The notes below the pieces were generated by a model. It was not told where the DNA came from. It worked only from the letters and a program-made list of their open reading frames with translations, and did no database searches. The position numbers were made by a program, and so were the translations under genes. This document shows positions 1 through 18,845 of a stretch of 64,000 bases of DNA, one piece after another. The stretch's first letter is position 1. Each line of letters begins with the position of its first letter. The stretch is from Plesiomonas shigelloides. Its GTDB lineage: Bacteria; Pseudomonadota; Gammaproteobacteria; Enterobacterales; CAMTGL01. Location: contig NZ_LT575468.1 of NCBI RefSeq assembly GCF_900087055.1, positions 682,001 through 746,000 on the forward strand. Direction: 5' to 3'.

Positions 1-2
1 GT

Positions 3-638
3 TTTAATACCACCAAAAACGGTGCTGTTAATAAAGAGAACACACCCAAAAACGGTAACGTTACCGAAAACGGGTGTGTTAACCAAATGAACACTACCGA
101 AAACGGTACTGTTACTGAGGTAAATACACCCAATTTTGGAGCCAAAGACACCCAAAAACGGGGTACGGAATCTACCAGTAATCTTAAAGATCTAAGATCT
201 AACCCCCTTACCCCCAAGGGGGAAGACGTCCGCCAGCAGGTATCTGACCTGATTGACCACTTGAACCAAAACCTAGTCAAACTGGCTAGCAAACTTGGCA
301 AGCCAGCTCCAACCATGGGATTTCGTGCAGGTACAGCCAATGTTCGGATGATCTCGGCTCGACTGCGTGAGGGTTACACCATGGACGACTGCCGCATGGT
401 GCTGGATTACCTTTCCGAGATGTGGGGCGCAGACGTTGAGATGCGCGAGCACCTGTGCCCGACCACGATTTTCCGACCATCAAAATTCGAAGACAGAGTC
501 GTTAAGGCTCACAACTGGAACGATGCCGGCCGCCCAAGCCGCGCCGGTAATTCATGGGACCGAAATGCACCATCGGCGTTCAACCTGTCAGATGCACTGG
601 ATGACACCACATGGGCTGATAACGGATTGGGGTTGTGA
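3..638 (+). CDS. Phage replication protein O-like (5' end outside window)
   Basis: Initiator-type phage replication protein that would bind the phage origin and recruit the P-like loader encoded next. The frame is open to the left edge with no stop, so the ATG at 87 is probably internal and the gene is truncated by the window. The visible N-terminal part (codons up to about position 180) is a low-complexity linker with repeated N-T-x-x-N-G-x-V units. From about 230 on, the protein resembles the conserved phage replication C-terminal domain (TIGR02220/Phg_2220_C type), with V-x-D-L-I-D-H-L-N, then R-x-I-x-A-R-L-R-E-G-Y-T and a final P-x-x-I-F-R-P-S-K-F-E-D. The stop overlaps the next gene region. 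The family call rests on recalled domain similarity and on synteny with lambda O-P. The repeats in the linker are also DNA-level repeats (see the iteron feature). Confidence 0.75.
   Translation, partial: FNTTKNGAVNKENTPKNGNVTENGCVNQMNTTENGTVTEVNTPNFGAKDTQKRGTESTSNLKDLRSNPLTPKGEDVRQQVSDLIDHLNQNLVKLASKLGKPAPTMGFRAGTANVRMISARLREGYTMDDCRMVLDYLSEMWGADVEMREHLCPTTIFRPSKFEDRVVKAHNWNDAGRPSRAGNSWDRNAPSAFNLSDALDDTTWADNGLGL
13..161 (+). repeat. Iteron-like array (candidate replication origin)
   Basis: Five copies of the 10-mer CCRAAAACGG start at 13, 46, 64, 97 and 152. Copies 1, 2 and 5 are CCAAAAACGG; copies 3 and 4 are CCGAAAACGG. Four are in the same reading register and give N-G repeats in the protein. 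The fifth lies in another register (it reads T-Q-K-R), so the DNA rather than the peptide is conserved. Lambda carries its origin iterons inside gene O, which makes this a likely phage origin. More copies may lie left of the window. Confidence 0.6.
53..66. repeat. 14-bp perfect palindrome inside the iteron array
   Basis: CGGTAACGTTACCG is perfectly self-complementary and joins the end of iteron 2 to the start of iteron 3 in head-to-head fashion. It could be a dimer site for the initiator protein. Confidence 0.55.
203..222. repeat. C/G-rich hairpin after the iterons
   Basis: CCCCCTT (203-209) pairs with AAGGGGG (216-222) around a 6-nt loop, just after two AGATCT sites (188-193, 195-200). It lies inside the O-like coding sequence between linker and C-terminal domain. 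It could be part of the origin or chance. Confidence 0.35.
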
Positions 639-640
639 TC

Positions 641-1375
641 ATGACTGAGATTAAGACCTTTGAAAACTTGCAGGTAAGCAGTTCAGGCATGCGCAACGCA
701 GCGATGCGTGTTGTGGATTACTCGCAGGTGCAGATTAATTCCGAAGCTGTGCAAAACGTGAATGAGATTTTCCGCGAATTGGCGATCACATTCCCTGCGT
801 GGCGTACCGCATACCCAGATGCACAAAGCTTGAACAGTGCCAAGCAGGTTTGGGCAAAGGGGTTGATTGAAAACGGTATTACTGACATGGCCCTGATCAG
901 AGTTGGATTGCGCGTTGCTCGCTCTCAACCGATGCCGTTTATCCCTAGCGTTGGTCAATTTGTCGCATGGTGTCGCGCTGAATCATCCATCCCTGGCTTG
1001 CCTAGCTTGGACGATGTGATGACCGAGTTTGACCGGTTCTGTGCAAACCACCACGACTACAGCATCCCAGAGGCATACCCGTGGTCATCGCCGGTGATGT
1101 ACTGGATTGTGCTGGATATGCGCCGCTCAATGTACCGCTACAACCAGACCGCTGCAGAGGTTCGTTCGACTGCAAAAAATCTGCTTCGGAAGTGGGAGAA
1201 AAAACTGCTGTCCGGAGAGGCTGTGCCATCACCAGTGGCTCAGTTAGAAAATAAACATCGCCCAGCTGGTGTAGCCCAGCAAGCTGACGTTGATGGCCGG
1301 TACCGGATGTTGGGAGACTCAATGCTGGCAGCCATTCGCGCCCGCACATCAGTAGCAAAGGGGGTATTGCAGTGA
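641..1375 (+). CDS. Phage replication protein P-like (helicase loader)
   Basis: Counterpart of lambda P, which takes host DnaB helicase to the origin marked by O. About 244 residues, close to lambda P (233). The most telling stretch is near residues 95-120: M-P-F-I-P-S-V-G-Q-F-V-A-W-C-R, where lambda P has R-P-F-L-P-S-P-G-Q-F-V-A-W-C-R, followed by a similar A-Y-P-W-S-S-P-V-M-Y-W. I chose ATG 641 because the GGGG at 629-632 is at good spacing from it. GTG 635 is an alternative that adds two residues. The O-like stop (636-638) lies just before this start, so the two are translationally coupled. Confidence 0.82.
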   Translation: MTEIKTFENLQVSSSGMRNAAMRVVDYSQVQINSEAVQNVNEIFRELAITFPAWRTAYPDAQSLNSAKQVWAKGLIENGITDMALIRVGLRVARSQPMPFIPSVGQFVAWCRAESSIPGLPSLDDVMTEFDRFCANHHDYSIPEAYPWSSPVMYWIVLDMRRSMYRYNQTAAEVRSTAKNLLRKWEKKLLSGEAVPSPVAQLENKHRPAGVAQQADVDGRYRMLGDSMLAAIRARTSVAKGVLQ

Positions 1376-1584
1376 GTATTAGAAATATCCGGATTGAGTT
1401 TTTGCTCAATGTTGTTCGGAGCAAGCGAAAGGCTTGGACTGCGGTAGAGCTGTGTGAGCAGACCGGTTTGCGTGAGCCTGTCCTTGCTGCTGATCTCGCG
1501 GAGCTGTGTGCTGGCGGCGTGGTGCAGAAAGTCCAAAACGAACAGCAGATGACCTATTTCTTTGCGGAGAGTTTCCGATGCTGA
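1372..1584 (+). CDS. Small winged-helix-like phage protein
   Basis: A 70-residue protein with a GTG start that overlaps the stop of the P-like gene by 4 nt. The middle (T-A-V-E-L-C-E-Q-T-G-L-R, then L-A-A-D-L-A-E-L) reads as a helix-turn-helix, followed by a short V-Q-K-V-Q-N-E...M-T-Y-F-F stretch that could be a wing hairpin. A DNA-binding role is inferred from this pattern only. Many lambdoid phages keep small, poorly known genes at this place between P and the nin-like region. Confidence 0.6.
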   Translation: MSIRNIRIEFLLNVVRSKRKAWTAVELCEQTGLREPVLAADLAELCAGGVVQKVQNEQQMTYFFAESFRC

Positions 1585-1772
1585 TTGCCTTGATGCTAAC
1601 TGGCGTGGTGGTTGTCGTTATCGGTGGACTGTTCATCTGTTCGCGCAGCAGAGCAGTGACCGCGCCGGTGTCTGACTCTAATGCATGGGACGAAGACTTG
1701 AAGGCCGCTCGTGCGCTTCGAGATTTGGCAGCACGCTGTAAAGCGGCTAGGGGAGTGCGTGAGCATGGCTAA
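1578..1772 (+). CDS. Small single-span membrane protein
   Basis: 64 residues beginning at ATG 1578, 7 nt inside the preceding gene. Residues 2-20 (M-L-I-A-L-M-L-T-G-V-V-V-V-V-I-G-G-L) form an obvious transmembrane helix. The rest is a short, charged, alanine-rich cytoplasmic tail. The frame is open further upstream to 1506, but that part lies inside the previous gene and has no better start. Function unknown. Confidence 0.5.
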   Translation: MLIALMLTGVVVVVIGGLFICSRSRAVTAPVSDSNAWDEDLKAARALRDLAARCKAARGVREHG

Positions 1773-1878
1773 ACGCATAATTCGACCGGTAGTAGAACTT
1801 TTGGTTTGGCTGATTGCAGGCGTATCGGTATTGGGGTTTGTGCAAATCCTGCTGGAGCTGCTAGCAAAAGGGGGCTGA
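1765..1878 (+). CDS. 37-residue membrane peptide
   Basis: ATG 1765 to TGA 1878 gives a 37-residue peptide with a basic start (M-A-K-R-I-I-R) and a hydrophobic helix of about 22 residues (V-V-E-L-L-V-W-L-I-A-G-V-S-V-L). A GGGGAG ribosome-binding site lies about 10 nt upstream, and the gene overlaps the previous one by 8 nt, as its neighbours do. It fits the chain of overlapping small genes and is likely translated. Function unknown. Confidence 0.5.
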   Translation: MAKRIIRPVVELLVWLIAGVSVLGFVQILLELLAKGG

Positions 1879-1882
1879 GATT

Positions 1883-2989
1883 TTGCTTTCTGAAAAAACG
1901 TATCTAGTACCGGCATACATCCAGAAGGACTTGGATGTTCTTATGGTCAAGCTGCCCGAACCGGTCCAACGTTTTCAGGGAAAGAAGGTACTGATAACAC
2001 TCGCACCTGACAGCATGCAGAAAAGTGATGCTGGTACGGTTGATGTCAGCCTTGAGGCTGCACCTGAAATGATGGCGTTCTATTCCAGTGAGGCTGTATT
2101 TAATGCCTGTGGTGGCACAAAGGGAATGCGCGCCTGGATTGCGCGGACAAACACCCACCGATGCCAATTGGCGGATGACAAGTTTTGCCATCATGAAAAG
2201 ATTATCTGGGAGAGCCCTTTAGGCGCACTTCAAGTCTGTTGGTATCACGACCCTTCAATATCACGGTGGGCAGGGGACGGCGAATATGCTGCCAAAGTGA
2301 ACCAAGTACTGGATCAGCTGCGCCGTAAATATGTCATCGAGACGATGCGCTCTTGGCTTGAGGTACCTGCAGGCCGGCCTATGTCTCTATATGAGGTTTT
2401 GTGGTTCGCTGTTAGCCAAGAACTCACAGTCCACTTACCCGATGCTCTGATGGCAAAGATGGCTGGCTATAAGGAACCTAAGCCCGAGCCGGTTTTGAAG
2501 TTAGGTGATAAACCTGATTATTGGGAGCGGTTCCGTATCCCAGAAAAGCGCGAGGATTACGTAAAGCAAGGGCGCTCTAGCTTAGTTGAGCAACAACAGA
2601 AGCTTGAGAGAGCGGTATCTTCAGTTCCAGCTTTAGATGCTAGAACAGAGAAGGCAGTTAAAACGCTTCAGGTAGATCCAGAGCCGCCAGCATCATTTAT
2701 GCTCAAACCAAAGCGCATTAGGTGGGTATGTGAAAAGTATACGCAGTGGGTTAAGAACCAGCCGTGTGTCTGCTGCGGATCTCAGGCTGATGATCCGCAT
2801 CATTTGATTGGGCATAACCAAGGTGGCGTGGGAACCAAAGCTCATGACATCTTCACTATTCCACTGTGCCGTCAGCACCATGATGAACTGCATAGAGATC
2901 CTAGGACATGGGCGAAGGTGTATGGGAGTCAGTTGTTGCATGTGGTGCAGACGATAGATGCCGCTTTTTCTCTTGGAATATTAAAGTAA
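1883..2989 (+). CDS. DUF968-family phage protein with HNH-like C-terminal domain
   Basis: A 368-residue protein read from TTG 1883, 8 nt after an AAAGGGGG ribosome-binding site. A later ATG at 1943 is less well placed. The C-terminal 90 residues carry a probable zinc/nuclease motif: C-V-C-C-G, D-P-H-H-L-I-G-H, G-T-K-A-H-D-I-F-T-I-P-L-C-R-Q-H-H-D-E-L-H. This matches my memory of the DUF968 family found in lambdoid prophages (E. coli YdfU type), thought to be nuclease-like. The N-terminal 250 residues have no motif I recognise. It closes the replication/nin-like gene chain. Confidence 0.75.
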   Translation: MLSEKTYLVPAYIQKDLDVLMVKLPEPVQRFQGKKVLITLAPDSMQKSDAGTVDVSLEAAPEMMAFYSSEAVFNACGGTKGMRAWIARTNTHRCQLADDKFCHHEKIIWESPLGALQVCWYHDPSISRWAGDGEYAAKVNQVLDQLRRKYVIETMRSWLEVPAGRPMSLYEVLWFAVSQELTVHLPDALMAKMAGYKEPKPEPVLKLGDKPDYWERFRIPEKREDYVKQGRSSLVEQQQKLERAVSSVPALDARTEKAVKTLQVDPEPPASFMLKPKRIRWVCEKYTQWVKNQPCVCCGSQADDPHHLIGHNQGGVGTKAHDIFTIPLCRQHHDELHRDPRTWAKVYGSQLLHVVQTIDAAFSLGILK

Positions 2990-2994
2990 TAACG

Positions 2995-3033
2995 AATGAA
3001 ACTAAAATTAGAGTTACTAATTTTAGTTTCATT
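2995..3033. repeat. 17-bp perfect inverted repeat over a start codon
   Basis: Arms 2995-3011 and 3017-3033 are perfectly complementary around the 5-nt loop AGTTA. The left arm begins AATGAAACTAAAATT. It sits 5 nt after the DUF968-type gene and contains the ATG of the next ORF. There is no U-run after it, so it is not a standard intrinsic terminator. It could cap the upstream mRNA, hide the next start codon or bind a dimeric protein. Confidence 0.75.
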
Positions 3034-3301
3034 GTGCGCTACATTTTTAGTTAATTCGTATATTAGGAATTACTTTCGTCTTATTGACGGTAGAGAGGCA
3101 TCAGCTGAACTAGTGTTGATGTGTAGATTGGTTATTTTGTTGATTCGTACTTTTTTATTTTTAAATGCTGAGTTTTATCTTTTTGTGCTGATGATTAACT
3201 ATTATTTATATGGCATTGCTAGTTGTGAATGTTTTTTAAAGTTGTTTATGGAATGTTTTATTTTATTTTATTGTAACTATTCTTGTTTGTGTATTGTGTG
3301 A
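2996..3301 (+). CDS. Unknown AT-rich hydrophobic protein
   Basis: An open frame of 101 residues that would be almost entirely hydrophobic (several membrane spans) and unusually rich in Cys, Phe, Leu and Tyr. The base composition is much more AT-rich than the phage genes before it, and the ribosome-binding site is weak. The start codon lies inside a 17-bp perfect inverted repeat. Hydrophobic AT-rich frames often arise by chance, so this may not be a gene. If real, it would be a small membrane protein at the left edge of the cargo block. Confidence 0.3.
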   Translation: MKLKLELLILVSLCATFLVNSYIRNYFRLIDGREASAELVLMCRLVILLIRTFLFLNAEFYLFVLMINYYLYGIASCECFLKLFMECFILFYCNYSCLCIV

Positions 3302-3498
3302 TTTATAAAATCAATGGATATTTTCATTGCGAAAATACTTCCAAAATCAAAATCAGTATTATATGTTATAAAACACCCGGTCATTTTTGTTATTGTGGCT
3401 TTAGGGTTTGGTTAATAATGTGTTTATTTTGCAGTGGATAATAAAGCAAGGAGAGGATAGCCAGGGATAAGGCAAATAAATAAGAAGGTCGTTTTAAA
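3302..3498. other. AT-rich leader of the autotransporter gene
   Basis: No gene is seen. The stretch is strongly AT-rich and presumably carries a promoter of its own for the autotransporter, but I cannot fix -35/-10 boxes with confidence. AAGGAGAGG at about 3449 looks like a ribosome-binding site but lies some 45 nt before the start. The nearer AAGAAGG (about 3482) is the likely one. Confidence 0.4.
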
Positions 3499-6400
3499 AT
3501 GAAATGTTCTCATAATTCAATATTTACAATAGGTTTATTAGCTGCTTCAATTAGTAGTGCGTTTGCTGCTGTTCAAAGTTTTGATGATGGTGGTGTGCAC
3601 AATCTCGTTGGCGTCATTGGTGACAATAAAGGAAACCCTAACACGCCTGCAGTTAGCGCTTCAAATGGCTCTACTGTAAATATTGAAGAGCAATCTAGCA
3701 TATCAGCATTTTCACCTTATTCATTTGGTGTTTTATCATCAGATGCTGCAACTGTTAATATAACCAATTCAAAAGTTAATAGTGTTTCTAACTATTCATT
3801 TTCCGTTGCTGCAAAACAAGGCGGTACGGTTAATATATCAGGTTCTGAGATTACGTCTGAATCAGGAGGTAAGAAACTTCCGAGCAGTGGTTCAGTATTG
3901 AGTAGTGGCAATGGGGCGGTCGTCAATATTGATAACTCAAAAGTGATCGCATCATCCAATGGCTCAACTACGGCTCACGATGGATTAAGAGTTGTTAATA
4001 GTGCCGGTGTTATATCTGAGAATAATGGCTCTGTCAATATAACCAACTCAAGTGTTATTACATCAGGCGATGTTTCATCTGGCATTTTTGCACAGGCAAA
4101 GGGGAATGTTTTAGCCTCTGGAGTTGATGTTACTACATCGGGAAAAACAAGCTCTGCTATAGAAATTACTGGTGGTTCAGAGGCAATAATAAATAACAAT
4201 TCTGTTATAAAAACTACTGGTGATGATTCTCATGGCATCGAGTTAGTCGGTGGTAATGTGACACTGTCTGATTCATCTGTTATGACAGCGGGGCTTTCTA
4301 ACGCTGCTAATGCACAAGGTGCTAACTCATCGTTATCTGTTGAAAATTCTACGCTATCTACCGTAGGAGATAGCGCTCAAGCTATTTATGCGGGAAACAA
4401 AGCAAACGTTTCGCTGAATAAAGTAGGTGTATCCACCTCTGGATTAGGGGCATATGGTGTACTAGCAACAGATAAAGATACAATAGTATCTATTACTGAC
4501 AGCTCCATTTCTACATCAGGAAATAATAATTCAGCACTAAATTATTCATCCAACGCTGTAGTGAGCCAATTCGGTAGCACTGTTACCTTAAGTGGTACTA
4601 ATAAAATAGATACAAAAGGTAATCAGGCAGTTGGTTTATTATCACAGGTTAGTGGTGAAGGATTAGATACATTAATTACAGCTACAGGTAAAACTGAGAT
4701 TAGCACGGAGGGATATAATTCTTTCGGTTTAGTGTCATGTTCACTACAAGGGGGCGGTCGTGAGTGTGTATCCGCCCTGGAAGATGGTAATGATGGAAAC
4801 AATCCAAGCAGTAAATCCTTAATTGAAGGGACTGGCATAACAGTCAATACCAAAGGTGAGGGCGGCTACGCAGTTTATGCTAATGGTAAAGATGCAACTG
4901 TTAATATAAAACAATCATCTTTATCGACAACTGGTGTTAATGCACATGGTATTGCTATTCGTCAAGGTTCGGTAATTGGCGATAATTTGAATGTAAAAAC
5001 CTCAGGTGTTGGTGCTAACGGTGCCACATTATTTAATGGCGGCACTCTTGGTTTATCAAATTCTAGCCTTGTATCAGATAATGCTAATGGTTTACTAATT
5101 ACAGGTAATGGCTCACTAAATCCTGCGGTTATAGCGTTGGATAATAGCTCTGTTGACGGGGCGGTCTCAGGAGTAGCCATAAATGATGGTTCTGCAAATA
5201 TTAATTTGCTAGATAGCCACCTTATGTCATCGAGATCTAATGTTTTGCTTGATAACAAAGGAGGTGAGTTAGCTATTAATGCGCAAGGTTCTATTTTAGA
5301 TGGTGTATCTGTTTTGGGTGACAGTGGGAACACCGATGTTTCTTTAGCCAATAGTGTCTGGAAGCAATCGGCTGGTTCTGTTCTGAATAATCTGGCTATG
5401 AGTGGTAGTGATCTATATTTTGGGAAGGGTAATGATGTTGTATTGTCCTCTCCTGATAGAACCGTTCACGTTAAGGGTAACTATCATGGTGATAACGCAA
5501 CCATTCACTTCGTTACAAAATTAGAGGGCGATAACTCAGAAACCAACAAGTTAATTATTGACGGTGATAGTAGTGGCACATCTCTTGTATCTGTCTCAAA
5601 TGCAGGGGGGATGGGCGACCAAACCATCAACGGAATTGAATTAATCAGTGTTGCTGGCGAATCCAATGGTATTTTTAAACAAAAATCAAGGATTGTTGCT
5701 GGGGCGTATGATTATCAATTAACCAAGAAAGAGAAAGATTGGTACTTAGTAAGTCATCTTACAACACCAGAGCCAACACCAGAGCCAACACCAGAGCCAA
5801 CACCAGAGCCAACACCAGAGCCAACACCAGAGCCAACACCTAAGCCATTGATAAGACCAGAGGTAGGTAGTTATTTAGCTAATAATATTGCAGCTAATAC
5901 GATGTTTAACATGAGCCTTTACGATCGAATTGGTAGCACATACCATGCTGATTTTAATGGAGAAAAAAATCATAGTTTATGGTTAAGACAGGTTGGGGAA
6001 CACACATCATTTAATGATTCATCTGATGGTACTAAAACTAGAGTTAATAGTTTTACGACTCAATTGGGAGGGGATATTTATAAGGGGTCCTCTAATGGTA
6101 ATGATTCTATTACCTTTGGTGCATTTGGTGGCTATGGATATAGTTCAAGTAAGACCAGAGCTGATCTGACAGGTTACTCCGCGAAAGGTCATGTTGATGG
6201 GTATAGCCTTGGTTTTTATGGGACATGGTTTGAAAACCCTCAGCAAGAGAAGGGATTATACGTTGACTCTTGGTTGCAGTATTCTTGGTTTAATAACTCG
6301 GTTGATGGGCAAGAGTTGTCTACGGAGAAATATAAGTCAAAAGGGACAACGGCATCTCTAGAAATTGGCAATATCAATAAACTTAAAGAAACTATTGCGG

Positions 6401-6825
6401 AAGATGGGACCAAAACTAGTCTCATAGTTAAACCTCATGCGCAGCTTATTTATATGGGCGTAAGACCAGATACATTTGTTGAGGGTAATGGTACTGTTGT
6501 TAAGTCAAATATTTCCGGTAATTTTCAAACAAAACTTGGTGTTAGACTCTCTCTTAATGAGAAGTCTATCGATGCAGAAAAAGAAGTTAAAGATATTACT
6601 CCGTTTGTTGAGGCGAACTGGATTCACAATACAAGAGATAATTCAGTTTCAATGAATGGATATAATATTGCTGAGGCTGGCGTGAAAAATGTAGCCCAGA
6701 TCAAGGTCGGTGTTGATGGTAACGTTAAAAACAACCTGAGCGTTTGGGCTAATACATCAGTTCAGGTTGGTGCCCATAATTACACCAGCATTCAAGGTAT
6801 GATTGGTGTAAGTTATAAGTTCTAA
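3499..6825 (+). CDS. Type Va autotransporter (prophage cargo)
   Basis: A 1108-residue secreted surface protein. A signal peptide ends at about residue 23 (S-S-A-F-A-A). Residues about 30-720 form a passenger of repeated units like V-N-I-x-N-S-x-V-x-T-S-G-x-x-S-x-G-I, the pattern of a right-handed beta-helix. A P-E-P-T linker covers about 757-782. From about 787 to the end is an autotransporter beta-barrel that finishes in the typical ...Y-K-F. The only obvious cysteines in the passenger, C414 and C423, form a possible small disulfide loop. Likely roles are adhesion or aggregation, but no enzymatic motif is visible. It is clearly AT-richer than the phage genes, and it sits between replication and late genes, a usual place for lysogenic-conversion cargo. 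Confidence 0.88.
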   Translation: MKCSHNSIFTIGLLAASISSAFAAVQSFDDGGVHNLVGVIGDNKGNPNTPAVSASNGSTVNIEEQSSISAFSPYSFGVLSSDAATVNITNSKVNSVSNYSFSVAAKQGGTVNISGSEITSESGGKKLPSSGSVLSSGNGAVVNIDNSKVIASSNGSTTAHDGLRVVNSAGVISENNGSVNITNSSVITSGDVSSGIFAQAKGNVLASGVDVTTSGKTSSAIEITGGSEAIINNNSVIKTTGDDSHGIELVGGNVTLSDSSVMTAGLSNAANAQGANSSLSVENSTLSTVGDSAQAIYAGNKANVSLNKVGVSTSGLGAYGVLATDKDTIVSITDSSISTSGNNNSALNYSSNAVVSQFGSTVTLSGTNKIDTKGNQAVGLLSQVSGEGLDTLITATGKTEISTEGYNSFGLVSCSLQGGGRECVSALEDGNDGNNPSSKSLIEGTGITVNTKGEGGYAVYANGKDATVNIKQSSLSTTGVNAHGIAIRQGSVIGDNLNVKTSGVGANGATLFNGGTLGLSNSSLVSDNANGLLITGNGSLNPAVIALDNSSVDGAVSGVAINDGSANINLLDSHLMSSRSNVLLDNKGGELAINAQGSILDGVSVLGDSGNTDVSLANSVWKQSAGSVLNNLAMSGSDLYFGKGNDVVLSSPDRTVHVKGNYHGDNATIHFVTKLEGDNSETNKLIIDGDSSGTSLVSVSNAGGMGDQTINGIELISVAGESNGIFKQKSRIVAGAYDYQLTKKEKDWYLVSHLTTPEPTPEPTPEPTPEPTPEPTPEPTPKPLIRPEVGSYLANNIAANTMFNMSLYDRIGSTYHADFNGEKNHSLWLRQVGEHTSFNDSSDGTKTRVNSFTTQLGGDIYKGSSNGNDSITFGAFGGYGYSSSKTRADLTGYSAKGHVDGYSLGFYGTWFENPQQEKGLYVDSWLQYSWFNNSVDGQELSTEKYKSKGTTASLEIGNINKLKETIAEDGTKTSLIVKPHAQLIYMGVRPDTFVEGNGTVVKSNISGNFQTKLGVRLSLNEKSIDAEKEVKDITPFVEANWIHNTRDNSVSMNGYNIAEAGVKNVAQIKVGVDGNVKNNLSVWANTSVQVGAHNYTSIQGMIGVSYKF
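5767..5838 (+). repeat. Six perfect 12-bp tandem repeats in the autotransporter
   Basis: CCAGAGCCAACA is repeated six times without error and then decays (5839 on). It encodes the P-E-P-T linker between passenger and barrel. Gain or loss of a unit keeps the frame and changes only linker length. Confidence 0.95.
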
Positions 6826-6844
6826 CTGTTGTTTGATATTTGCA

Positions 6845-6875
6845 AAAGGGCTGGTTTGTCAGCCCTTTATTTTAA
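6845..6875 (+). terminator. Intrinsic terminator after the autotransporter
   Basis: AAAGGGCTG (6845-6853) pairs with CAGCCCTTT (6860-6868) around a 6-nt loop and is followed by a T-rich stretch. It lies 20 nt after the autotransporter stop, so that gene is probably its own transcription unit. Confidence 0.85.
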
Positions 6876-6966
6876 AAATATTCACTTCAAAATAAATAAC
6901 TCTTATTTTATAAATTTTGCCTCATAGCCATGAGCGCATTAAATTAAATTCTTGACCGGATTCCGT

Positions 6967-7704
6967 ATGAGTACGATTACGCATGATTATTTGATATTTT
7001 GTTATAAATATAATGGTATGGATTTTCATGTGGTTGCCCAGCCAATAGTAAGTAACTCTTCAGGTAAGATAACAGCCGTGGAGCTTTTGCCAAAATGCTA
7101 TAAGGAAGCATGCTTTGATGGGTTATATTTAGAGTCGGGGGTAAATGATTTGGCTAAAATGGCTTGTATTAAGATGCAAGCATTATCCAATATTGTACTG
7201 GATTTTCGTCGTTTTAATATGCATATAAATATCGATGTTAGTGCCCTGCTAAATTCCGAGTTTATATCAGCTGCAATGAATAATCATCATCGTTTCTCAT
7301 TTGAGGTTAAGGGGTTCGATTATGATTATGAGCTTATGCAAAAGGTCAGATCTGCGATCTCGAAATTGAAAGAGTATGGCCATGAAGTATGGCTTGATCA
7401 TTTTGGTGTTAACTCATCATCTTTGTGTACTCTACTTGATTACCCATGGAGTGGGATAAAAATTGATAAGGAAATTGTTTGGCGTAGTTCAATGCATCAA
7501 TTGTTATTGATAGTGGAGGTTTGTAAGTGTCATGTAGATAAAATTATCTTGGATGGGATTGAAAGTAATGACTTACTTAGCTTGTCTAAAATATCAATGG
7601 CTACGGAGAGTCAAGGCTATCATTGGCCTTTGCTTAAGCGAAATGATTTTTTCGCTTTAAATAAAAAATTGCGTAGTCTATCCAAGGGGTTTTATAACAA
7701 TTAA
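6967..7704 (+). CDS. Degenerate EAL-domain protein
   Basis: About 245 residues from ATG 6967 (an upstream TTG at 6952 is possible). It has the EAL fold pattern: A-Q-P-I-V near residue 23, G-K-I-T-A-V-E-L-L where active enzymes have E-A-L, F-S-F-E-V-K near 117, L-D-H-F-G-V-N-S-S-S-L where enzymes have D-D-F-G-T-G-Y-S-S-L, and I-K-I-D-K-E-I-V. The metal-binding signature is broken (the D-D pair is L-D-H), so cyclic di-GMP hydrolysis is unlikely. Similar enzymatically dead EAL proteins act as regulators by binding other proteins (E. coli YdiV type). It is AT-rich like the autotransporter, and regulation of that gene or of host adhesion/motility is a guess from position. Confidence 0.75.
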   Translation: MSTITHDYLIFCYKYNGMDFHVVAQPIVSNSSGKITAVELLPKCYKEACFDGLYLESGVNDLAKMACIKMQALSNIVLDFRRFNMHINIDVSALLNSEFISAAMNNHHRFSFEVKGFDYDYELMQKVRSAISKLKEYGHEVWLDHFGVNSSSLCTLLDYPWSGIKIDKEIVWRSSMHQLLLIVEVCKCHVDKIILDGIESNDLLSLSKISMATESQGYHWPLLKRNDFFALNKKLRSLSKGFYNN

Positions 7705-7739
7705 AATATCTTCATGTTCATATTTTATCCGAGCTGAAG

Positions 7740-8321
7740 ATGGGGCTAGTCATTGATATTAATAATAGGTCAATAGGGGATGCAATTAGCATTGCTACGG
7801 AGGGTGTAACCACCAGCTATGGCGAGGTCAGCTCTGGCCGTGATGAAACCGCAGATAGAAAGATCTGTAAGATGCTAGATAAAGGCAAAGTGCTCGCTGC
7901 AGTTGATAGGCTACCTTCTCATTTATCCGGTTGGCTGTTGGTTGCCTATGCCGCACCTGGCTATATCTCCGATAGACGAGCACAAGAGTTCTATGATGTT
8001 GTCCTGAGCGAGTTCGTTGGTCGCTATGGTGATGCCGGTTTTAAACTTTCCGAAGATCGCTGGGATGCTTTTATCCGACTCATCCCTCTGATCTGCAATG
8101 ACGTAGCTAGACATGGTACTGACGTTGATGCCCAGTATCGACCGGCAGAATACATTGCCGTACTCGCAGCTGATACCGGTTTAGATGCATCGGTATTACG
8201 TAAAGGTTGGCGCCGTGATTGGGCCCCAGCAATTGAATTTGTAAAAAGCATTCTCGACGGTTGGGACGCGCTAGCAAAACAGAAATTTCGACAAGAACTA
8301 GCAACCTTCCATATGGCTTGA
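7740..8321 (+). CDS. Putative late regulator in the position of antiterminator Q
   Basis: A 193-residue soluble protein. It has a compact helical middle (L-P-S-H-L-S-G-W-L-L-V-A-Y-A-A-P-G-Y) and, near residues 140-160, L-A-A-D-T-G-L-D-A-S-V-L-R-K-G-W-R-R-D-W, which could be a helix-turn-helix. I do not recognise the family. It lies after the early genes and before the lysis genes, where lambdoid phages encode Q. The intrinsic terminators downstream inside the late region argue that some antiterminator exists. The Q-like role is therefore positional inference. Its stop codon lies in a 21-bp repeat that recurs at 9295. Confidence 0.55.
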   Translation: MGLVIDINNRSIGDAISIATEGVTTSYGEVSSGRDETADRKICKMLDKGKVLAAVDRLPSHLSGWLLVAYAAPGYISDRRAQEFYDVVLSEFVGRYGDAGFKLSEDRWDAFIRLIPLICNDVARHGTDVDAQYRPAEYIAVLAADTGLDASVLRKGWRRDWAPAIEFVKSILDGWDALAKQKFRQELATFHMA

Positions 8322-8336
8322 TTTTGTTTTGCGGCA
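8316..8336 (+). repeat. 21-bp direct repeat, left copy
   Basis: Begins GCTTGATTT and ends TTTTGCGGCA. It matches 9295-9315 at 19 of 21 positions and includes the stop codon of the gene before it. The two copies bracket the unknown gene at 8459-9247. Confidence 0.8.
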
Positions 8337-8458
8337 TAGGGCATGGATCTTACGGGGCCGGTTTTATGAACAATTCGTGATTTTGTAAAAGGGGTATGTC
8401 TTTTGGACTAAGCTGTGAGAGGGCATCTAAGCCCGTAATCAACCGATAGGGAAATACT

Positions 8459-9247
8459 ATGTCTAATGTTCGTCAGCTTGTTAACGATTGGGTAGCAGGC
8501 GGTGTTAGTTTGGCAGCAACAGCTTCAACGTTGGCCGTTAATACAGAACAGGCGCAGTATGCTGATACTGTTGGGGATTTTTTAGGTATCAACACCAGTG
8601 CTCCTAATGCAAAGGGTATTGAGATTTTTGCTGATCCGCGTAACTTGCCGACCGCGATTTCTAGCATCATGACCCACACCCAGAATAAAGCTGATTTTCA
8701 CCCAGCAGTACAAACACCAGAAGTAGTGGCGCAGCGTTTTTCAAATTACATCATTGGGATGGATAACACGCCATTCTTCCATCTGCTGACTAATGACTAC
8801 GTTAAGCAGACCTTCAAGTCAAAAGACTACAATCAGCTGATTGACCAAATCGTGTCGCTGTACGATGGCGTTAGTGAATCAGACAAGTCGAAGTTGAAGA
8901 GCAAAATCACTGATATGGCTAAGTCTGTCTTCAGTCAGAGCCATTCGGAAAAATGGGAAAACTTGTTTTCTCAGGCGACTATCGACTATTCGAACACCCG
9001 TGAGCCGAAGCTCTACATTTTTTATACCACGCTGCACATGAAGCATGAAAAGAACGGTAAGTCCGAAGTCTCTGAGCAGGAATATACCGTGAATCGTGTT
9101 GAGTATTCTGTGCTGGCAGAGCTGATTCATTCGTACGCAGAAATGTTGTCCGCTTTAGTGAAGACGGATGTGGATGATTGGATGAAGGTCTCTTCTTCAC
9201 CATCTAATCCAACCATCAAGCTGTGCTTTGAAAAAGCGAACGTATAA
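8459..9247 (+). CDS. Unknown protein in a repeat-flanked cassette
   Basis: A 262-residue protein with an AGGGA ribosome-binding site 7 nt before ATG 8459. I do not recognise it. It has no signal peptide or clear membrane span. The N-terminus (V-N-D-W-V-A-G-G-V-S-L-A-A-T-A-S-T-L-A) is a small-residue-rich amphipathic segment. The middle is charged and helical, and only one cysteine is present, near residue 257. It sits alone between the Q-like gene and the lysis genes, is bracketed by near-identical 21-bp repeats and is followed by a terminator. This is the arrangement of an independently expressed cargo gene; immunity, toxin or virulence functions are all possible. Confidence 0.7.
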   Translation: MSNVRQLVNDWVAGGVSLAATASTLAVNTEQAQYADTVGDFLGINTSAPNAKGIEIFADPRNLPTAISSIMTHTQNKADFHPAVQTPEVVAQRFSNYIIGMDNTPFFHLLTNDYVKQTFKSKDYNQLIDQIVSLYDGVSESDKSKLKSKITDMAKSVFSQSHSEKWENLFSQATIDYSNTREPKLYIFYTTLHMKHEKNGKSEVSEQEYTVNRVEYSVLAELIHSYAEMLSALVKTDVDDWMKVSSSPSNPTIKLCFEKANV

Positions 9248-9294
9248 GCGTTATTTTTGGCAGCTCTCATGGATGCATGGCTCCGCATTAGATA

Positions 9295-9315
9295 GCTTGA
9301 TTTCATTTTGCGGCA
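9295..9315 (+). repeat. 21-bp direct repeat, right copy
   Basis: Second copy of the repeat at 8316-8336, differing at two adjacent bases (CA instead of TG after GCTTGATTT). It lies 48 nt after the unknown gene. Confidence 0.8.
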
Positions 9316-9362
9316 GATTTAATATCGTAATCCTATAGTGGATTACTGCATCCAATAGACAT

Positions 9363-9387
9363 AAACCCGCCTCGAGCGGGTTTTTTT
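9363..9387 (+). terminator. Intrinsic terminator before the lysis genes
   Basis: AAACCCGC (9363-9370) pairs with GCGGGTTT (9376-9383) around CTCGA, followed by a run of seven T (9381-9387). It would end transcripts of the unknown gene. Late transcription must read through it or start after it. Confidence 0.9.
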
Positions 9388-9484
9388 GTACCCAAATTTC
9401 GGCCATCAGCCTTTTTGTGCTGGTGGCTTTTTTGTATGCGACTGGTTAGCCCTGACTCGTCGCCATGACGCTCAGGAGGGCTAT

Positions 9485-9805
9485 ATGCCGGAAAAAGACC
9501 CCAGCATTTGGGCAATGCTATGTGCATGGGCGTACCAGAACTCACCAACTATCTATTCCTTTTGTCTAGCCTTCACCATTGCTGCTATCCGCGTTCTCTA
9601 CGGTGGCGGTACCAAACGAACGATGATTTTAGAAGGGGCGCTATGTGGCGCCCTTTCTCTTTCCTTTGTATCGGGAATGAAGTGGTTCGGCATACCAGTT
9701 GACGCTGCTGCATTCATTGGCGGCATGGTGGGTTTTATCGGCGTGAAGCAGCTGCAGATCTTTGCTTTGCGGATCATCAATAAGCACGTACCAAAGGAGC
9801 AATGA
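9485..9805 (+). CDS. Phage holin (lambda S-like)
   Basis: A 106-residue inner-membrane protein that times lysis by opening lesions for the endolysin. ATG 9485 is preceded by a perfect AGGAGG (9473-9478). The opening M-P-E-K and three hydrophobic segments (about 17-33, 43-62, 68-88) match the class I lambda S plan; the frame's upstream extension lacks such a site. It overlaps the endolysin start. Unlike lambda S, there is no second start codon two residues in, so a dual-start antiholin is not evident. Confidence 0.85.
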   Translation: MPEKDPSIWAMLCAWAYQNSPTIYSFCLAFTIAAIRVLYGGGTKRTMILEGALCGALSLSFVSGMKWFGIPVDAAAFIGGMVGFIGVKQLQIFALRIINKHVPKEQ

Positions 9806-10218
9806 TGTCTTTTTACTTGGGCAAACATAGCCTTGAAAACCTGCGAGGCGTGCATCCGGACTTGGTTAAGGTGGTGAAGCGCGCCATCGAGCTGACCAAG
9901 GTGGACTTTAAAGTCATTGAAGGTAAGCGCACCGAAGCTCGCCAGCGTCAGCTGGTGGTCAACGGCAAGAGCCAGACCATGAACAGCCGGCACCTGACTG
10001 GCCACGCGGTGGACTGCGCTCCGCTGGTGGCTGGAATTATCCCGTGGAATGACCGTAAGGTATTCACTGCGGTATCTGAAGCCATGTTCTCTGCAGCCAG
10101 TGAGTTAGGTGTGAAGATTCGCTGGGGTGGTGACTGGAACGAGAATGGTCGTAGCGATGATGAGCGGTTTTATGATGGCCCTCATTTTGAGCTGCGTCGT
10201 GCGGAGTATCCGGCATGA
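9805..10218 (+). CDS. Endolysin, VanY-like (M15) peptidase
   Basis: A 137-residue zinc peptidase that cuts the peptide part of peptidoglycan. The M15 signature S-R-H-L-T-G-H-A-V-D gives H63 and D70 as zinc ligands, with H127 in G-P-H-F-E-L as the third. E-G-K-R-T-E-A-R-Q near residue 39 is also typical of the T5-type/CwlK group. ATG 9805 is 5 nt from AAGGAG; ATG 9802 is possible but too close. No signal peptide, so release depends on the holin next to it. Confidence 0.88.
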   Translation: MSFYLGKHSLENLRGVHPDLVKVVKRAIELTKVDFKVIEGKRTEARQRQLVVNGKSQTMNSRHLTGHAVDCAPLVAGIIPWNDRKVFTAVSEAMFSAASELGVKIRWGGDWNENGRSDDERFYDGPHFELRRAEYPA

Positions 10219-10727
10219 TTAGCCGCCGTGCATTATTGGCCATCGCAATGGCTGTAGTGGCGCTGTGGCTTTTCTCAGAGTGGCGTTACTCCGCAGGGGA
10301 AGCTGCCATGAATGAGGTGTGGCAGTCTCGCTGGATTGCGCGTGATGCTGCTGATGCAGAAGAGCGTCAGCTTAGGCAAGAAGCTGCCCGTACAGAAGAA
10401 CAACGGCGGGCTGATGCTGTAGCAGCTCAGGAGAAAGAGGCGAACGATGAACTGGAAAAAGCAAAGCGTGATGCTGCCGCTGCTGAGTCTCGTGGCTTGC
10501 AGCAGCAACTCAAAACCCTCAGGGCTAAGTTCTCATCCAGTGGCTCCTGCTCGATTTCCGGAGCTGCCGGAGCAGGCAAAGCAGAAGCCTCTATCACTGT
10601 GCTCACCGAGCTGCTCGGCGAAGCTGATGCAGTTGCGGGAGCAATGGCAGAAGAAGCTGACCGCGCTCGAGTAGCAGGTGCTGCATGTGAGCGGATATAC
10701 AACTCAGTAACTAAAACAGGAGATTGA
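10215..10727 (+). CDS. Inner-membrane spanin, Rz-like
   Basis: 170 residues: an N-terminal membrane anchor (about 5-21) then a long, charged, Ala/Glu-rich coiled coil (about 40-110). With the nested Rz1 lipoprotein it would form the spanin complex that fuses inner and outer membranes in the last step of lysis. It overlaps the endolysin stop by 4 nt. The order holin-endolysin-Rz/Rz1 supports the call. Confidence 0.85.
   Translation: MISRRALLAIAMAVVALWLFSEWRYSAGEAAMNEVWQSRWIARDAADAEERQLRQEAARTEEQRRADAVAAQEKEANDELEKAKRDAAAAESRGLQQQLKTLRAKFSSSGSCSISGAAGAGKAEASITVLTELLGEADAVAGAMAEEADRARVAGAACERIYNSVTKTGD
10447..10674 (+). CDS. Outer-membrane spanin lipoprotein Rz1, nested in Rz
   Basis: A 75-residue frame entirely inside Rz in another frame. 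It starts M-N-W-K-K, has a short hydrophobic signal and a lipobox L-S-L-V-A-C, with Cys 18 as the lipidation site. The rest is proline-rich, as Rz1 proteins are. AGAGG lies a few bases before ATG 10447. Nesting of Rz1 in Rz is the lambda arrangement. Confidence 0.85.
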   Translation: MNWKKQSVMLPLLSLVACSSNSKPSGLSSHPVAPARFPELPEQAKQKPLSLCSPSCSAKLMQLREQWQKKLTALE

Positions 10728-10728
10728 T

Positions 10729-10920
10729 GTGATTACTCTTTCACTTGCTCAGATCAAAGAGCTGGCGCGCTTCGCAGAACAAGAAGGGCAGCAAGAATAC
10801 ACCATTACGCATGGCGAGATTCCTGCATTTGAAGACTCTACGGGGAAAAACGTCCCAGCCTATAGCGGCTTGATTGCGTTCTCCGGATCAGTAGATAGCG
10901 GTGTGCTGCAGCTCGGCTAA
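10729..10920 (+). CDS. Small unknown phage protein after the spanins
   Basis: 63 residues from GTG 10729, with CAGGAGA about 7 nt upstream. Soluble, no cysteine, no motif I recognise. It follows Rz by one base and is probably translated in the same late transcript. Confidence 0.55.
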   Translation: MITLSLAQIKELARFAEQEGQQEYTITHGEIPAFEDSTGKNVPAYSGLIAFSGSVDSGVLQLG

Positions 10921-10963
10921 GGGCATTACAGATGGCTTTCAATGAGAGCCATCGATAATGCCC
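10921..10963 (+). other. Long imperfect hairpin between lysis and packaging genes
   Basis: GGGCATTA (10921-10928) pairs with TAATGCCC (10956-10963), and inside it ATGGCT (10932-10937) pairs with AGCCAT (10947-10952), with 3-nt symmetric internal loops. It starts right after a stop codon. The 144-nt gap 10921-11064 has no gene. In phages with this gene order the cos site lies near here, so this may belong to a packaging recognition region. Confidence 0.5.
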
Positions 10964-11064
10964 ACGGGGAGAGCATCTGCACTTATACAGGCTTAGGCCA
11001 ATAGCATCCAGCTCCCGCAGTGGGCAGATTATTGCACCTCGCTTTATTCCAAGAGGAGTGACTC

Positions 11065-11409
11065 ATGAAGTCATCAAGCGTTTATAGCAGTCGTTGGAAC
11101 AAGGCTAGGTTGTCGTACCTAAAAAGCCATCCGTTATGCGTGTGGTGCCGCGAGCACGGGCAGATAACCCCTGCAACGGTGGTAGACCACATTCAACCGC
11201 ACAGGCTCAAAGAGGCTCTGCAGTCAGGCGATAAGGCTGCTATCGATCGAGCGCAGAAATTGTTCTGGGATACCAGCAACTGGCAAGGGCTGTGCAAGTT
11301 ACATCATGACTCAACAAAGCAACGGGCAGAGAAGCGAGGCCGAGCTCAAGGCTGTGATGAGGATGGCATTCCATTCAGTGCAAGCGCGCATTGGGGAGGG
11401 GCGGGTTAA
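11065..11409 (+). CDS. HNH endonuclease next to the terminase
   Basis: 114 residues, with AGAGGAG before ATG 11065. Motifs: C-V-W-C near residue 25, V-V-D-H-I-Q-P-H (the first H pair), then N-W-Q-G-L-C-K-L-H-H-D-S, giving the ββα-metal HNH core. HNH proteins are encoded beside P27-type small terminases in HK97-like phages, where they help terminase cut DNA at cos. Confidence 0.88.
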   Translation: MKSSSVYSSRWNKARLSYLKSHPLCVWCREHGQITPATVVDHIQPHRLKEALQSGDKAAIDRAQKLFWDTSNWQGLCKLHHDSTKQRAEKRGRAQGCDEDGIPFSASAHWGGAG

Positions 11410-11496
11410 AAGTTCAGGGGAAACGCCTTTGACGACCGCCAGTCCTCCTTTTTACGCACAACCGCGAAATGAAAAGTTTTTTTCTGGGAGGTTCTG

Positions 11497-11964
11497 ATGG
11501 CTGGAAGGCGACCAAAACCGACCCACTTAAAGGTGGTAACCGGTAACCCGGGCAATCGAAAACTCAATGATCATGAGCCTAAACCACGACGTGAAGTACC
11601 GAGTCCTCCGGAGCATTTAACCGACTGGGGAAAAATGGCGTGGGTAAAGGTGTCCCTGCTTTTAGACGACATGGGCGTTTTGACTGTGGCTGACTCTTTA
11701 GCCCTAGAACGCTTGTGTGATATTTACGCCGACATCCTGCAGCTACGTGAAACTATCGCGATAGAAGGCAGGACCTACACAACAAAAACTCAGATGGGTG
11801 ATTTCTTGATTAAGGCAAATCCGGCGGTGGCCATGCTGGCAGATGCCGATCGCCGTTTCAAAAGTTACCTCGTTGAGTTTGGTCTCACTCCGGCAGCACG
11901 AACGAAGGTGAAAGTAGATGGTGGAGAGGAAAAAGAAGACCCGCTCAGCCAGTTCTTCGGCTGA
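11497..11964 (+). CDS. Terminase small subunit, P27 family
   Basis: 155 residues starting M-A-G-R-R-P-K-P-T-H-L-K-V-V-T-G-N-P-G-N-R, the opening typical of the P27 small-terminase family. It binds the packaging site and recruits the large subunit. GGGAGG ends 6 nt before the ATG. Its 3' end overlaps the large subunit by 47 nt. Confidence 0.88.
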   Translation: MAGRRPKPTHLKVVTGNPGNRKLNDHEPKPRREVPSPPEHLTDWGKMAWVKVSLLLDDMGVLTVADSLALERLCDIYADILQLRETIAIEGRTYTTKTQMGDFLIKANPAVAMLADADRRFKSYLVEFGLTPAARTKVKVDGGEEKEDPLSQFFG

Positions 11965-13660
11965 CCCGGCAACACAGTATGCACGCGATGTTACTGAAGG
12001 CCGCATTCTCGCAGGCCCTGATATTCGCAATGCATGCAGCAGACACTTAAGAGATCTTGAGCATGGCCCGTCGCGTGGGCTGGTTTGGGATGTCGATGCA
12101 GCAAATCGTGTTATCGATTTCTTTGCCAAGGTACTCAAGCTCAACGGCGGTGAGCATGAGGGAAAGCCGTTTATTCTGCTGCCGTGGCAGTGCTTCATTG
12201 TTGGCTCACTGTTTGGCTGGAAGTCCAGCGATGGTACCCGTCGATTTCGGATGAGCTATATCGAATCGGGTAAAGGCTCTGGCAAATCACCATTAGCAGG
12301 TGGGGTTGGCTTGTATTGCATGGTGGCCGATAACGAGCCGCGTGCCGAGGTGTACGCCGCGGCGACCAAAAAAGACCAGGCAATGATTTTGTTCCGCGAT
12401 GCGGTGGCGATGGTGGATCAGTCGCCTGCATTGTCTACTCGGTTGGTTAAATCCGGTGCGGGACTTAATACATGGAACTTGGCATATCTGCAGACGGGTT
12501 CTTTCTTTAAGCCGATCAGTTCTGATGACGGGCAATCGGGGCCGCGACCGCACTGTGCCTTGATTGATGAAGTCCATGAACACAAAACCAATACCGTCGT
12601 TGAGATGATGCGGGCGGGGACAAAAGGTCGGCGTCAGGCACTAATGTTCCTAATCACCAACAGTGGACATGACAAAACCAGTGTTTGTTATGACTACCAT
12701 GAGTACGGAAGAAAAATCGCTGCAGGCACAGAAGAGGACGACAGTTTCTTTTCGTTTATCTGCTCGCTGGATGAAGGGGATGACCCTTTCAAAGATGAAT
12801 CGTGCTGGGGGAAGGCTAACCCGTCACTGGGTTACACATTTACGGATAAATATCTGCGTGAACAGGTCACACAGGCGCGCGGTATGCCGGCCAAGGAGAG
12901 CATTGTTCGCCGTCTTAATTTCTGCCAATGGGTAGATGCGGATAATCCGTGGATGAGCAGTGATGTCTGGATGGCTCGAGAGAAAGATTTTGAACTCATT
13001 GAGCTGGCTGGTGAGGAATGTTATGGCGGACTCGACTTGTCTGGTACGCGAGACTTAACCGCACTTGCGCTCTATTTCCCAAAGAAAAAAATCTTGGCTG
13101 TTGAGTTTTGGACTCCGCAAGATACGTTATTGCACCGCGCTAAAACTGACCGCGTACCTTATGACGTGTGGGTTAAAAAAGGGCATATGCATGCACCACC
13201 GGGCAAGGCTGTGAAATATGCCTTTGTCGCTGAGCGGATCGCAGAGCTCTCGCAACAATTTGACCTACGGCTTATCGCTTTTGACCAGTATCGGATTAAG
13301 TACCTCGAGCCAGAGTTGGATGAGGCTGGCGTTATGGTGCCGTTGGTTCCTCATGGGCAGGGCTTTTTCAAGGCCCAAGACTCAGGGTTGTGGATGCCTC
13401 ACTCGATTGAGCTGTTTGAGGGATTGTTAGATGACGAGTCCATAACAATAAAAACAAATCCGTGTCTTCGCTGGAATGCCGCGTCAGCAGTAACCGAAGC
13501 TGATCAAAAGAACAATCGTATCTTCGCCAAGAAACGCAGTACCGGTCGTATTGATGGCATTGTTGCCGCAGCGATGGCAATTGGTGCTGCTGAAGGTGTT
13601 GAACTGGACGATGGTGACGTCGAGGGCTTTTTTGATGATCCGATAATCGTAGGTGTGTAA
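11918..13660 (+). CDS. Terminase large subunit (HK97-like)
   Basis: 580 residues. Packaging ATPase: Walker A-like E-S-G-K-G-S-G-K-S near residue 115, Walker B C-A-L-I-D-E-V-H-E near 212. Nuclease: G-L-D-L-S-G-T-R-D near 370 and A-F-D-Q-Y near 455 supply the acidic metal site. This is the two-domain motor that cuts concatemeric DNA and drives it into the prohead. It starts inside the small subunit gene and its last base is the first base of the portal start codon. Confidence 0.92.
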   Translation: MVERKKKTRSASSSADPATQYARDVTEGRILAGPDIRNACSRHLRDLEHGPSRGLVWDVDAANRVIDFFAKVLKLNGGEHEGKPFILLPWQCFIVGSLFGWKSSDGTRRFRMSYIESGKGSGKSPLAGGVGLYCMVADNEPRAEVYAAATKKDQAMILFRDAVAMVDQSPALSTRLVKSGAGLNTWNLAYLQTGSFFKPISSDDGQSGPRPHCALIDEVHEHKTNTVVEMMRAGTKGRRQALMFLITNSGHDKTSVCYDYHEYGRKIAAGTEEDDSFFSFICSLDEGDDPFKDESCWGKANPSLGYTFTDKYLREQVTQARGMPAKESIVRRLNFCQWVDADNPWMSSDVWMAREKDFELIELAGEECYGGLDLSGTRDLTALALYFPKKKILAVEFWTPQDTLLHRAKTDRVPYDVWVKKGHMHAPPGKAVKYAFVAERIAELSQQFDLRLIAFDQYRIKYLEPELDEAGVMVPLVPHGQGFFKAQDSGLWMPHSIELFEGLLDDESITIKTNPCLRWNAASAVTEADQKNNRIFAKKRSTGRIDGIVAAAMAIGAAEGVELDDGDVEGFFDDPIIVGV

Positions 13661-14949: not shown

Positions 14950-14960
14950 GATTTTCCCTT

Positions 14961-15818
14961 ATGACTAAACGAACGCTTCCGGCGGCGCCGGCGGGTCGCC
15001 CCTGCGCGCGCGTCTCGTGTGAGTTGTCGCCGGTGGCCATGGAGCGCTGGAATAGCTCTCTGCAGGCGGCAGCATCCGATGATGAAAACACGATTTCCAT
15101 TCTGGATGTCATTGGTGCGGATTACTGGGGCGAGGGCATGACGGCAAAACGAATGGCCGGTTTGCTGCGTGCCATGGGCGGCGCTGATGTGGTCGTCAAT
15201 ATCAACTCGCCCGGTGGCGACATGTTCGAAGGGCTCGCCATTTATAACCAACTTCGGGAGTACAGCGGGCGCGTCACAGTAAAAGTCATCGGCATTGCTG
15301 CGAGCGCCGCTTCCATTATCGCCATGGCGGCCGATGAGCTGAAAATCGGTCGCGCTGCTTTTCTGATGATCCACAACTGCTGGGTTGCAGCCGTTGGTAA
15401 CCGGCATGATTTGGTGCGTGTCGCCCAAGACATGGAGCCGTTTGATCGTGCAATGCAGGACATCTACAGCGTACGCAGTGGGCTAAGCGGTACCGAAATC
15501 ATGGCAATGATGGATAACGAAACCTACATCGGTGGGGCGGATGCCGTGGATAAGGGGATGGCTGATGCATTGTTAGATGCGGATGCCGTTCTCGGTGAAC
15601 CTGACTCTCCTGCCGCAGCGCTGCGCAAATTGGATGCGCTACTCGCGAAAGCTAATACCCCACGCGCCGAACGCCGGCGATTACTGAAAGCCTTGAAGGG
15701 GAGCATGCCGGGCGCTGCCCCCACCAATGACGGTATGCATGACGCTGCCGTAACAATAAACCCTGAAATTCTTGCTGGTCTTGAGTCTGCGCTGAGCACT
15801 CTGGTTCCGGCTGCCTGA
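14961..15818 (+). CDS. ClpP-like prohead maturation protease
   Basis: 285 residues with an S14 serine protease core: N-S-P-G-G-D-M-F-E-G near residue 80, catalytic Ser115 in I-A-A-S-A-A-S and His138 in M-I-H-N. It trims the scaffold-like delta domain of the capsid protein and/or scaffold during head maturation. The first 25 residues are Arg/Pro/Ala-rich and the C-terminal 80 residues are Ala-rich, perhaps a scaffold part. Confidence 0.9.
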   Translation: MTKRTLPAAPAGRPCARVSCELSPVAMERWNSSLQAAASDDENTISILDVIGADYWGEGMTAKRMAGLLRAMGGADVVVNINSPGGDMFEGLAIYNQLREYSGRVTVKVIGIAASAASIIAMAADELKIGRAAFLMIHNCWVAAVGNRHDLVRVAQDMEPFDRAMQDIYSVRSGLSGTEIMAMMDNETYIGGADAVDKGMADALLDADAVLGEPDSPAAALRKLDALLAKANTPRAERRRLLKALKGSMPGAAPTNDGMHDAAVTINPEILAGLESALSTLVPAA

Positions 15819-15833
15819 TATATCGGAGAGCTT

Positions 15834-17051: not shown

Positions 17052-17067
17052 CCCTTTAGTGTTTCAA

Positions 17068-17086: not shown

Positions 17087-17101
17087 AATCAGGATGTGAT
17101 T

Positions 17102-17374: not shown

Positions 17375-17388
17375 CACCGGGGGTTTCC

Positions 17389-18459: not shown

Positions 18460-18467
18460 GTGAACGT

Positions 18468-18839: not shown

Positions 18840-18845
18840 GTAAGT

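Follow-up and report, generated by a model that had tools for sequence, protein, structure and literature searches.

The window, a 64,000-nucleotide stretch of the complete, single-contig 3.41-Mb genome of the gut bacterium Plesiomonas shigelloides, contains a plus-strand block composed of an AT-rich leader (2990..3498), an autotransporter gene (3499-6825) and a gene for a standalone, degenerate EAL-fold protein (6967..7704). The block is flanked on the left by an HNH-type DUF968 phage gene (1883..2989, plus strand; 201 bits in Pfam) and on the right by a phage gene that occupies the Q position and encodes 193 aa (7740..8321, plus strand). The original prediction had described an AT-rich block between a DUF968-type and a Q-like gene, and the base composition agrees with this, with GC contents of 0.28 (leader), 0.39 (autotransporter gene) and 0.35 (EAL gene) compared to 0.44-0.57 in the compared neighbouring phage and host genes; GC3 values within the block are 0.27 and 0.33. 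The DUF968 assignment of the left flank also stands, whereas the label 'Q-like' describes the position of the right flank, since the 193-aa protein matches solely PHROGs of unknown function. The 23S rRNA primer specific for P. shigelloides, 25 nt long, has exact matches at ten places of the genome, in line with the host assignment; its sequence is given in a paper on isolates of this species (PMC7409234).

The leader (28% GC) opens with a perfect 17 bp inverted repeat with a 5-nt loop (2995..3033), which marks the left edge of the block and closely follows the stop codon of the DUF968 gene. The repeat is 100% complementary and folds at -19.8 kcal/mol (z -6.6); it is a candidate terminator, regulatory or junction hairpin. 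The leader also contains an ORF of 101 aa (2996-3301) for which no family match exceeded the cut-off, and a scan of its plus strand found no consensus sigma-70 promoter upstream of the autotransporter. A further hairpin follows the autotransporter gene at about 6845-6868 on the plus strand and resembles a terminator, with a 9-bp stem (AAAGGGCTG/CAGCCCTTT), a 6-nt loop and then ATTTT, and a folding energy of -15.5 kcal/mol over 6830-6885 (z -3.0). It was not listed by the consensus terminator scan because just four U directly follow the stem. As this hairpin separates the autotransporter and EAL genes, co-regulation of the two is not required.

The prophage and the cargo status of the block

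The block resides in a lambdoid prophage of about 41.3 kb that is bounded by a near-perfect 43-nt repeat, with attL at genome position 673280-673322, beyond the window, and attR at 32553-32594 of the window. Positions 1..32594 of the window thus belong to the prophage as delimited by the att repeat. The left end of the prophage encodes an S24-type repressor and a weak match to an integrase, and a P-like gene and late genes are also present in lambdoid order. A search with the 193-aa gene identified a sister prophage, IMG/VR contig IMGVR_UViG_2831953396_000003 (L180), that shares 97.7% identity with positions 1-1530 of the window and 97.9% with positions 9418-14593. Sequence comparison shows the stretch in between, 1531..9417, to be a mosaic module that is exchanged relative to L180. 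In the L180 module the DUF968 gene (60% identical at the amino acid level) and the 193-aa gene (62%) enclose just one gene, which reads as RusA-like. The autotransporter gene was not found in any part of the L180 record, which is possibly incomplete, and no EAL gene was found within the 16.6 kb of it that were examined. Since L180 is near-identical on both sides and yet lacks the block, the autotransporter and EAL genes are optional cargo within an exchanged module; the location of the block inside an att-bounded prophage, along with its lack in so close a sister, marks it as accessory. Together with the domains of the autotransporter, this bears out the expectation of phage cargo encoding a surface-type protein.

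The autotransporter and the EAL-fold protein

The autotransporter ORF encodes an 1108 aa classical monomeric autotransporter. Its C-terminal β-barrel (PF03797, residues 827-1085) scores 133.7 bits in Pfam against a cut-off of 26, and is preceded by an AC_1 autochaperone (residues 627-741; 91.6 bits). The best solved relatives in the PDB are the AIDA-I barrel (4mee, 4e-80) and the IcsA autochaperone (3ml3/5ke1). By its barrel and autochaperone behind a passenger the protein is a classical (type Va) autotransporter, and these matches confirm the predicted 1108-residue autotransporter, whose own terminator is represented by the terminator-like hairpin downstream of the ORF. The N-terminus reads as a Sec signal peptide (predicted at about residues 1-23) and export to the surface is putative. 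The passenger (about residues 24-626) is rich in repeats, the pattern of which suggests a β-helical structure. Between passenger and barrel lies a PEPT linker (about residues 755-785) encoded by a 12-bp tandem repeat of 6.6 copies (5762..5840, plus strand), and because the repeat units are in frame, slippage alters the length of the linker without a frameshift.

Like the AIDA-I-type, MisL and IcsA-like adhesins, the protein combines an AC_1 autochaperone with a PF03797 barrel. It differs from them in being carried by a prophage and in falling far below every curated cut-off of the NCBIfam models for named autotransporters (MisL, AIDA-I, ShdA and YfaL). The top score, 402/1297 bits with MisL, is for the C-terminal part alone, and the AIDA-I score is 307/1200. 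No passenger homologue with a known binding specificity was found.

The EAL ORF encodes 245 aa from an ATG at 6967, a more likely start than the alternative upstream TTG at 6952, and matches PF00563 with 55.1 bits (Pfam cut-off 31.3). An EAL fold is predicted by an AlphaFold model built on a 15-sequence alignment (pLDDT 86.5; a two-sequence alignment gave a poor model with a pLDDT of 48), which VIA-align superimposes onto YahA (Z 22.6), YdiV (3tlq, Z 21.1) and STM1697 (5hxg, Z 19.6). The catalytic YahA scores as high as YdiV and STM1697, and therefore the fold alone cannot separate a catalytic from a degenerate EAL protein. The catalytic set (E, N, ExxE, DD, K, EGVE, Q) is incomplete in the alignment; 8/11 positions are kept and 3/11 are changed, namely the second E of ExxE to G116, the second D of DD to H145 and the first E of EGVE to D196. 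The protein had originally been described as dead; it is indeed degenerate, and judging from the three substitutions the loss of c-di-GMP phosphodiesterase catalysis is likely. The E to D change at position 196 is conservative, and the three changes fall short of proving that catalysis is lost.

The nearest EAL relative found is a chromosomal paralogue in the same genome, located at 859,960 with no autotransporter nearby, that shares 38-39% identity. The paralogue keeps both DD and EGVE, and thus decay seems to have gone further in the phage protein than in this relative. No close relatives were found in IMG/VR, just distant EAL proteins (Roseburia, Treponema and others) in the genome contig collection, and no DNA match among E. 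coli genome sequences. Neither the EAL gene nor the next two genes gave a defence match in PADLOC. P1-like phages also encode a standalone EAL protein from a short AT-rich gene on a temperate phage; unlike the window protein, it keeps 11/11 catalytic-site positions and has no adhesin nearby. One of these P1-like phage relatives is annotated as YdiV.

Adhesin and EAL genes on other mobile elements

No EAL gene (E < 1e-3) was found beside any of the 18 autotransporter relatives from other genomes, in windows of 16-19 kb. The prophage-borne relatives comprise six IMG/VR contigs (L043-L048) that carry autotransporters in the P-nin region, most of them at the same P-to-nin/DUF968 position as the window block. 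Just the barrel half of these proteins resembles the window autotransporter (47-48%), and theirs have a longer N-terminal extension; an EAL gene close by is present in just one of the six. The two genes do not form a strict two-gene unit. Co-occurrence in relatives had been set beforehand as the test of such a pairing, and in most relatives the genes occur independently. P. shigelloides itself was represented in the comparison by a single genome.

A looser association between adhesin and EAL genes on mobile elements holds, and in this form the predicted linkage recurs both in a further prophage and on plasmids. The prophage is the lambdoid L103/L046 (IMGVR_UViG_2884086401_000004), in which a 225-aa EAL protein is followed after a gap of 63 bp by an 855-aa autotransporter with AIDA stalk, pertactin and barrel domains, then by a 193-aa protein and a second autotransporter. 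All of these genes lie between P and DUF968, the same phage site as that of the window block. No relatives of the L046 autotransporter or EAL protein were found among other IMG/VR contigs, and the small protein beside the autotransporter has no homology to proteins of the examined fimbrial loci. On AIDA-I-type E. coli plasmids an EAL gene is situated between two HTH/AraC-type regulators, with an autotransporter or a remnant of one a few kb away. The plasmid EAL proteins are nearly identical and are therefore counted as one case; the autotransporters of three of the plasmids (L099, L122 and L123) were missed by the autotransporter profile and are taken from the annotation of the records. The autotransporter-linked EAL proteins do not form one clade in a FastTree tree read for its topology alone, which is consistent with separate origins.

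Standalone EAL genes are also found near fimbrial operons. Chaperone-usher genes are located within about 8 kb of 12/21 standalone EAL loci compared to 0/15 control loci encoding multidomain EAL proteins (Fisher test, p = 2e-4 by locus and 0.024 with loci hand-grouped into types), where many of the 21 loci are orthologues and thirteen of them were found with the L046 EAL protein, which is itself adhesin-linked. EAL proteins from comparable fimbrial neighbourhoods (L098, L131, L058 and L130) are relatives of the window protein. They retain catalytic-site residues that it has lost, and the DD and EGVE residues are likewise kept in the adhesin-linked EAL proteins of the plasmids and of L046.

EAL proteins are known from fimbrial adhesin clusters, with STM0551, MrkJ, SfaY and FimK as examples, among which STM0551 is a repressor of type 1 fimbriae and an active phosphodiesterase in vitro (PMC3487979). 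Like these proteins, the window EAL is a short protein encoded beside an adhesin system, which in this case differs in being an autotransporter in a prophage. Autotransporters have in turn been reported in Klebsiella prophages, namely ehaB and agn43 (PMC12649213). Hence an autotransporter in a prophage and an EAL gene in an adhesin cluster are each already known, and the present cases widen it to include autotransporter genes of phages and plasmids. Searches of openly licensed papers yielded no description of a phage-borne autotransporter with a degenerate EAL protein, nor of a recurring adhesin/EAL linkage on mobile elements.

Possible roles of the cargo

The explanation towards which we lean, with slightly more confidence than doubt, is that the block is lysogenic-conversion ('moron'-type) cargo of the P-Q region which provides an adhesin and a probably non-catalytic EAL regulator. 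We infer that the two genes are functionally linked and that both are expressed. The lysogen would export the autotransporter through its own barrel and display the β-helical passenger, which may promote attachment or aggregation. The EAL protein, if inefficient at hydrolysing c-di-GMP, could act as a regulator that binds either a protein partner, in the manner of YdiV, or c-di-GMP itself, in the manner of FimX. It would then tune the behaviour of the cell surface, possibly including the autotransporter or the host's own EAL paralogue, with a target other than FlhDC. STM0551, MrkJ, SfaY and FimK provide a precedent from fimbrial systems (PMC3487979), although STM0551 is described there as catalytic. 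The missing consensus promoter upstream of the autotransporter, the hairpin that splits it from the EAL gene and the lack of an EAL neighbour in most autotransporter relatives all speak against this explanation.

The main rival, which is possible rather than probable but keeps substantial weight, is that an adhesin gene and a captured host EAL gene are two independent pieces of cargo, brought together as chance neighbours by mosaic exchange and sharing the low GC content of horizontally moved DNA. The nearest EAL relative is chromosomal and does not lie beside an autotransporter, and so two AT-rich genes may have become adjacent in the window by chance. This reading is also favoured by the terminator-like hairpin that separates them, by the counts of 0/18 and 1/6 in the neighbourhood surveys and by a tree in which autotransporter-linked EAL proteins do not group as one clade. 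Against it, a similar neighbourhood occurs at the same site of another lambdoid prophage and on the AIDA-I-type plasmids, and fimbrial operons are found near standalone EAL genes far more often than near those encoding multidomain EAL proteins.

A regulatory link could also take a catalytic form, in which an active or weakly active phosphodiesterase lowers local c-di-GMP and represses the adhesin, a mode of action put forward for STM0551, MrkJ and SfaY in fimbrial systems. The eight retained catalytic-site positions and the precedent of STM0551, a fimbrial repressor with activity in vitro (PMC3487979), would fit such a role, but the substitutions in ExxE, DD and EGVE, residues of which DD and EGVE are kept by the adhesin-linked EAL proteins of the plasmids, L046 and the fimbrial loci, make it improbable. 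The degenerate standalone EAL proteins YdiV and STM1697 are anti-FlhD4C2 factors, and a phage-encoded protein of this type would block FlhD4C2 and render the lysogen non-motile. The window protein is like both in its EAL fold, its standalone architecture and its incomplete active site, and EAL relatives do occur in P1-like phages, including the one annotated as YdiV. However, it shares just 14-17% identity with YdiV and STM1697 over the structural alignment and is no closer to them in fold than to catalytic EAL proteins such as YahA. Moreover, no match to FlhC or FlhD was found in the complete host genome by a search that was positive for the E. coli control. The YdiV mechanism is thus unavailable in this host, an anti-FlhDC role was rejected and the motility regulation that had been envisaged is ruled out in its YdiV/FlhDC form, which leaves a YdiV-like factor as the least probable account. 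P. shigelloides uses FlaK/FlaM (PMC11242183).

The preferred explanation of an adhesin with a non-catalytic regulator can be taken further, to a more speculative proposal that we regard as rather unlikely in its full extent. Mobile elements of the Enterobacterales would repeatedly and independently assemble cassettes of an adhesin and a standalone EAL protein, at P-Q sites of prophages and on AIDA-I-type plasmids, and the EAL protein of the window would have turned into a regulator without catalysis, disturbing either the host EAL paralogue or c-di-GMP signalling. The phage would in this way set the attachment state of its lysogen in a host that lacks FlhDC. If the EAL protein does control adhesion, prophages would carry a surface protein together with its control element. 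The adhesin-plus-EAL pairings suggest that mobile elements have come upon this means of changing bacterial adhesion more than once. As P. shigelloides lacks FlhDC, other targets of a degenerate EAL protein could be studied in this host without interference from the flagellar effect described in E. coli and Salmonella.

Further AT-rich islands and RdgC

The left arm of the prophage that carries the autotransporter contains a two-gene AT-rich island (positions 11181-12880 of L020, the piece of the same genome covering this arm; genome 675181-676880), which encodes proteins of 341 aa and 223 aa with GC contents of 0.37 and 0.30, respectively. Neither gene has a match in Pfam or PADLOC, and the island looks like additional cargo. 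Between the tail fibre and attR (window 31674-32177) lie two short AT-rich ORFs, with GC contents of 0.34 and 0.37, which are possibly also additional cargo. A perfect 17-bp AT-rich hairpin (window 2995-3033, z -6.6) sits right at the left edge of the AT-rich block that harbours the autotransporter. The prophage itself encodes RdgC (L020 13322-14233, 399.6 bits), and the flanking chromosome contains an ORF (window 44314-45231) with an N-terminus similar to the prophage RdgC.

PHROG naming of the autotransporter

The C-terminal half of the autotransporter (window 3499-6825) is matched by phrog_15824 (2.9e-153). This PHROG is called 'tail fiber protein proximal subunit', a name probably given in error to a phage autotransporter.

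EAL genes in other phages

The P1-like phages L016, L017, L019 and L164-L167 encode a standalone EAL gene between lxc and mat that retains the complete catalytic set, and that is usually adjoined by a divergent gene of ~244 aa. In L103, another lambdoid prophage, which bears an EAL-autotransporter cassette of its own, a small protein of 193 aa and unknown family is encoded next to the cassette (12366-12947), and a divergent gene pair at 7552-8777 reads as CadC-like.
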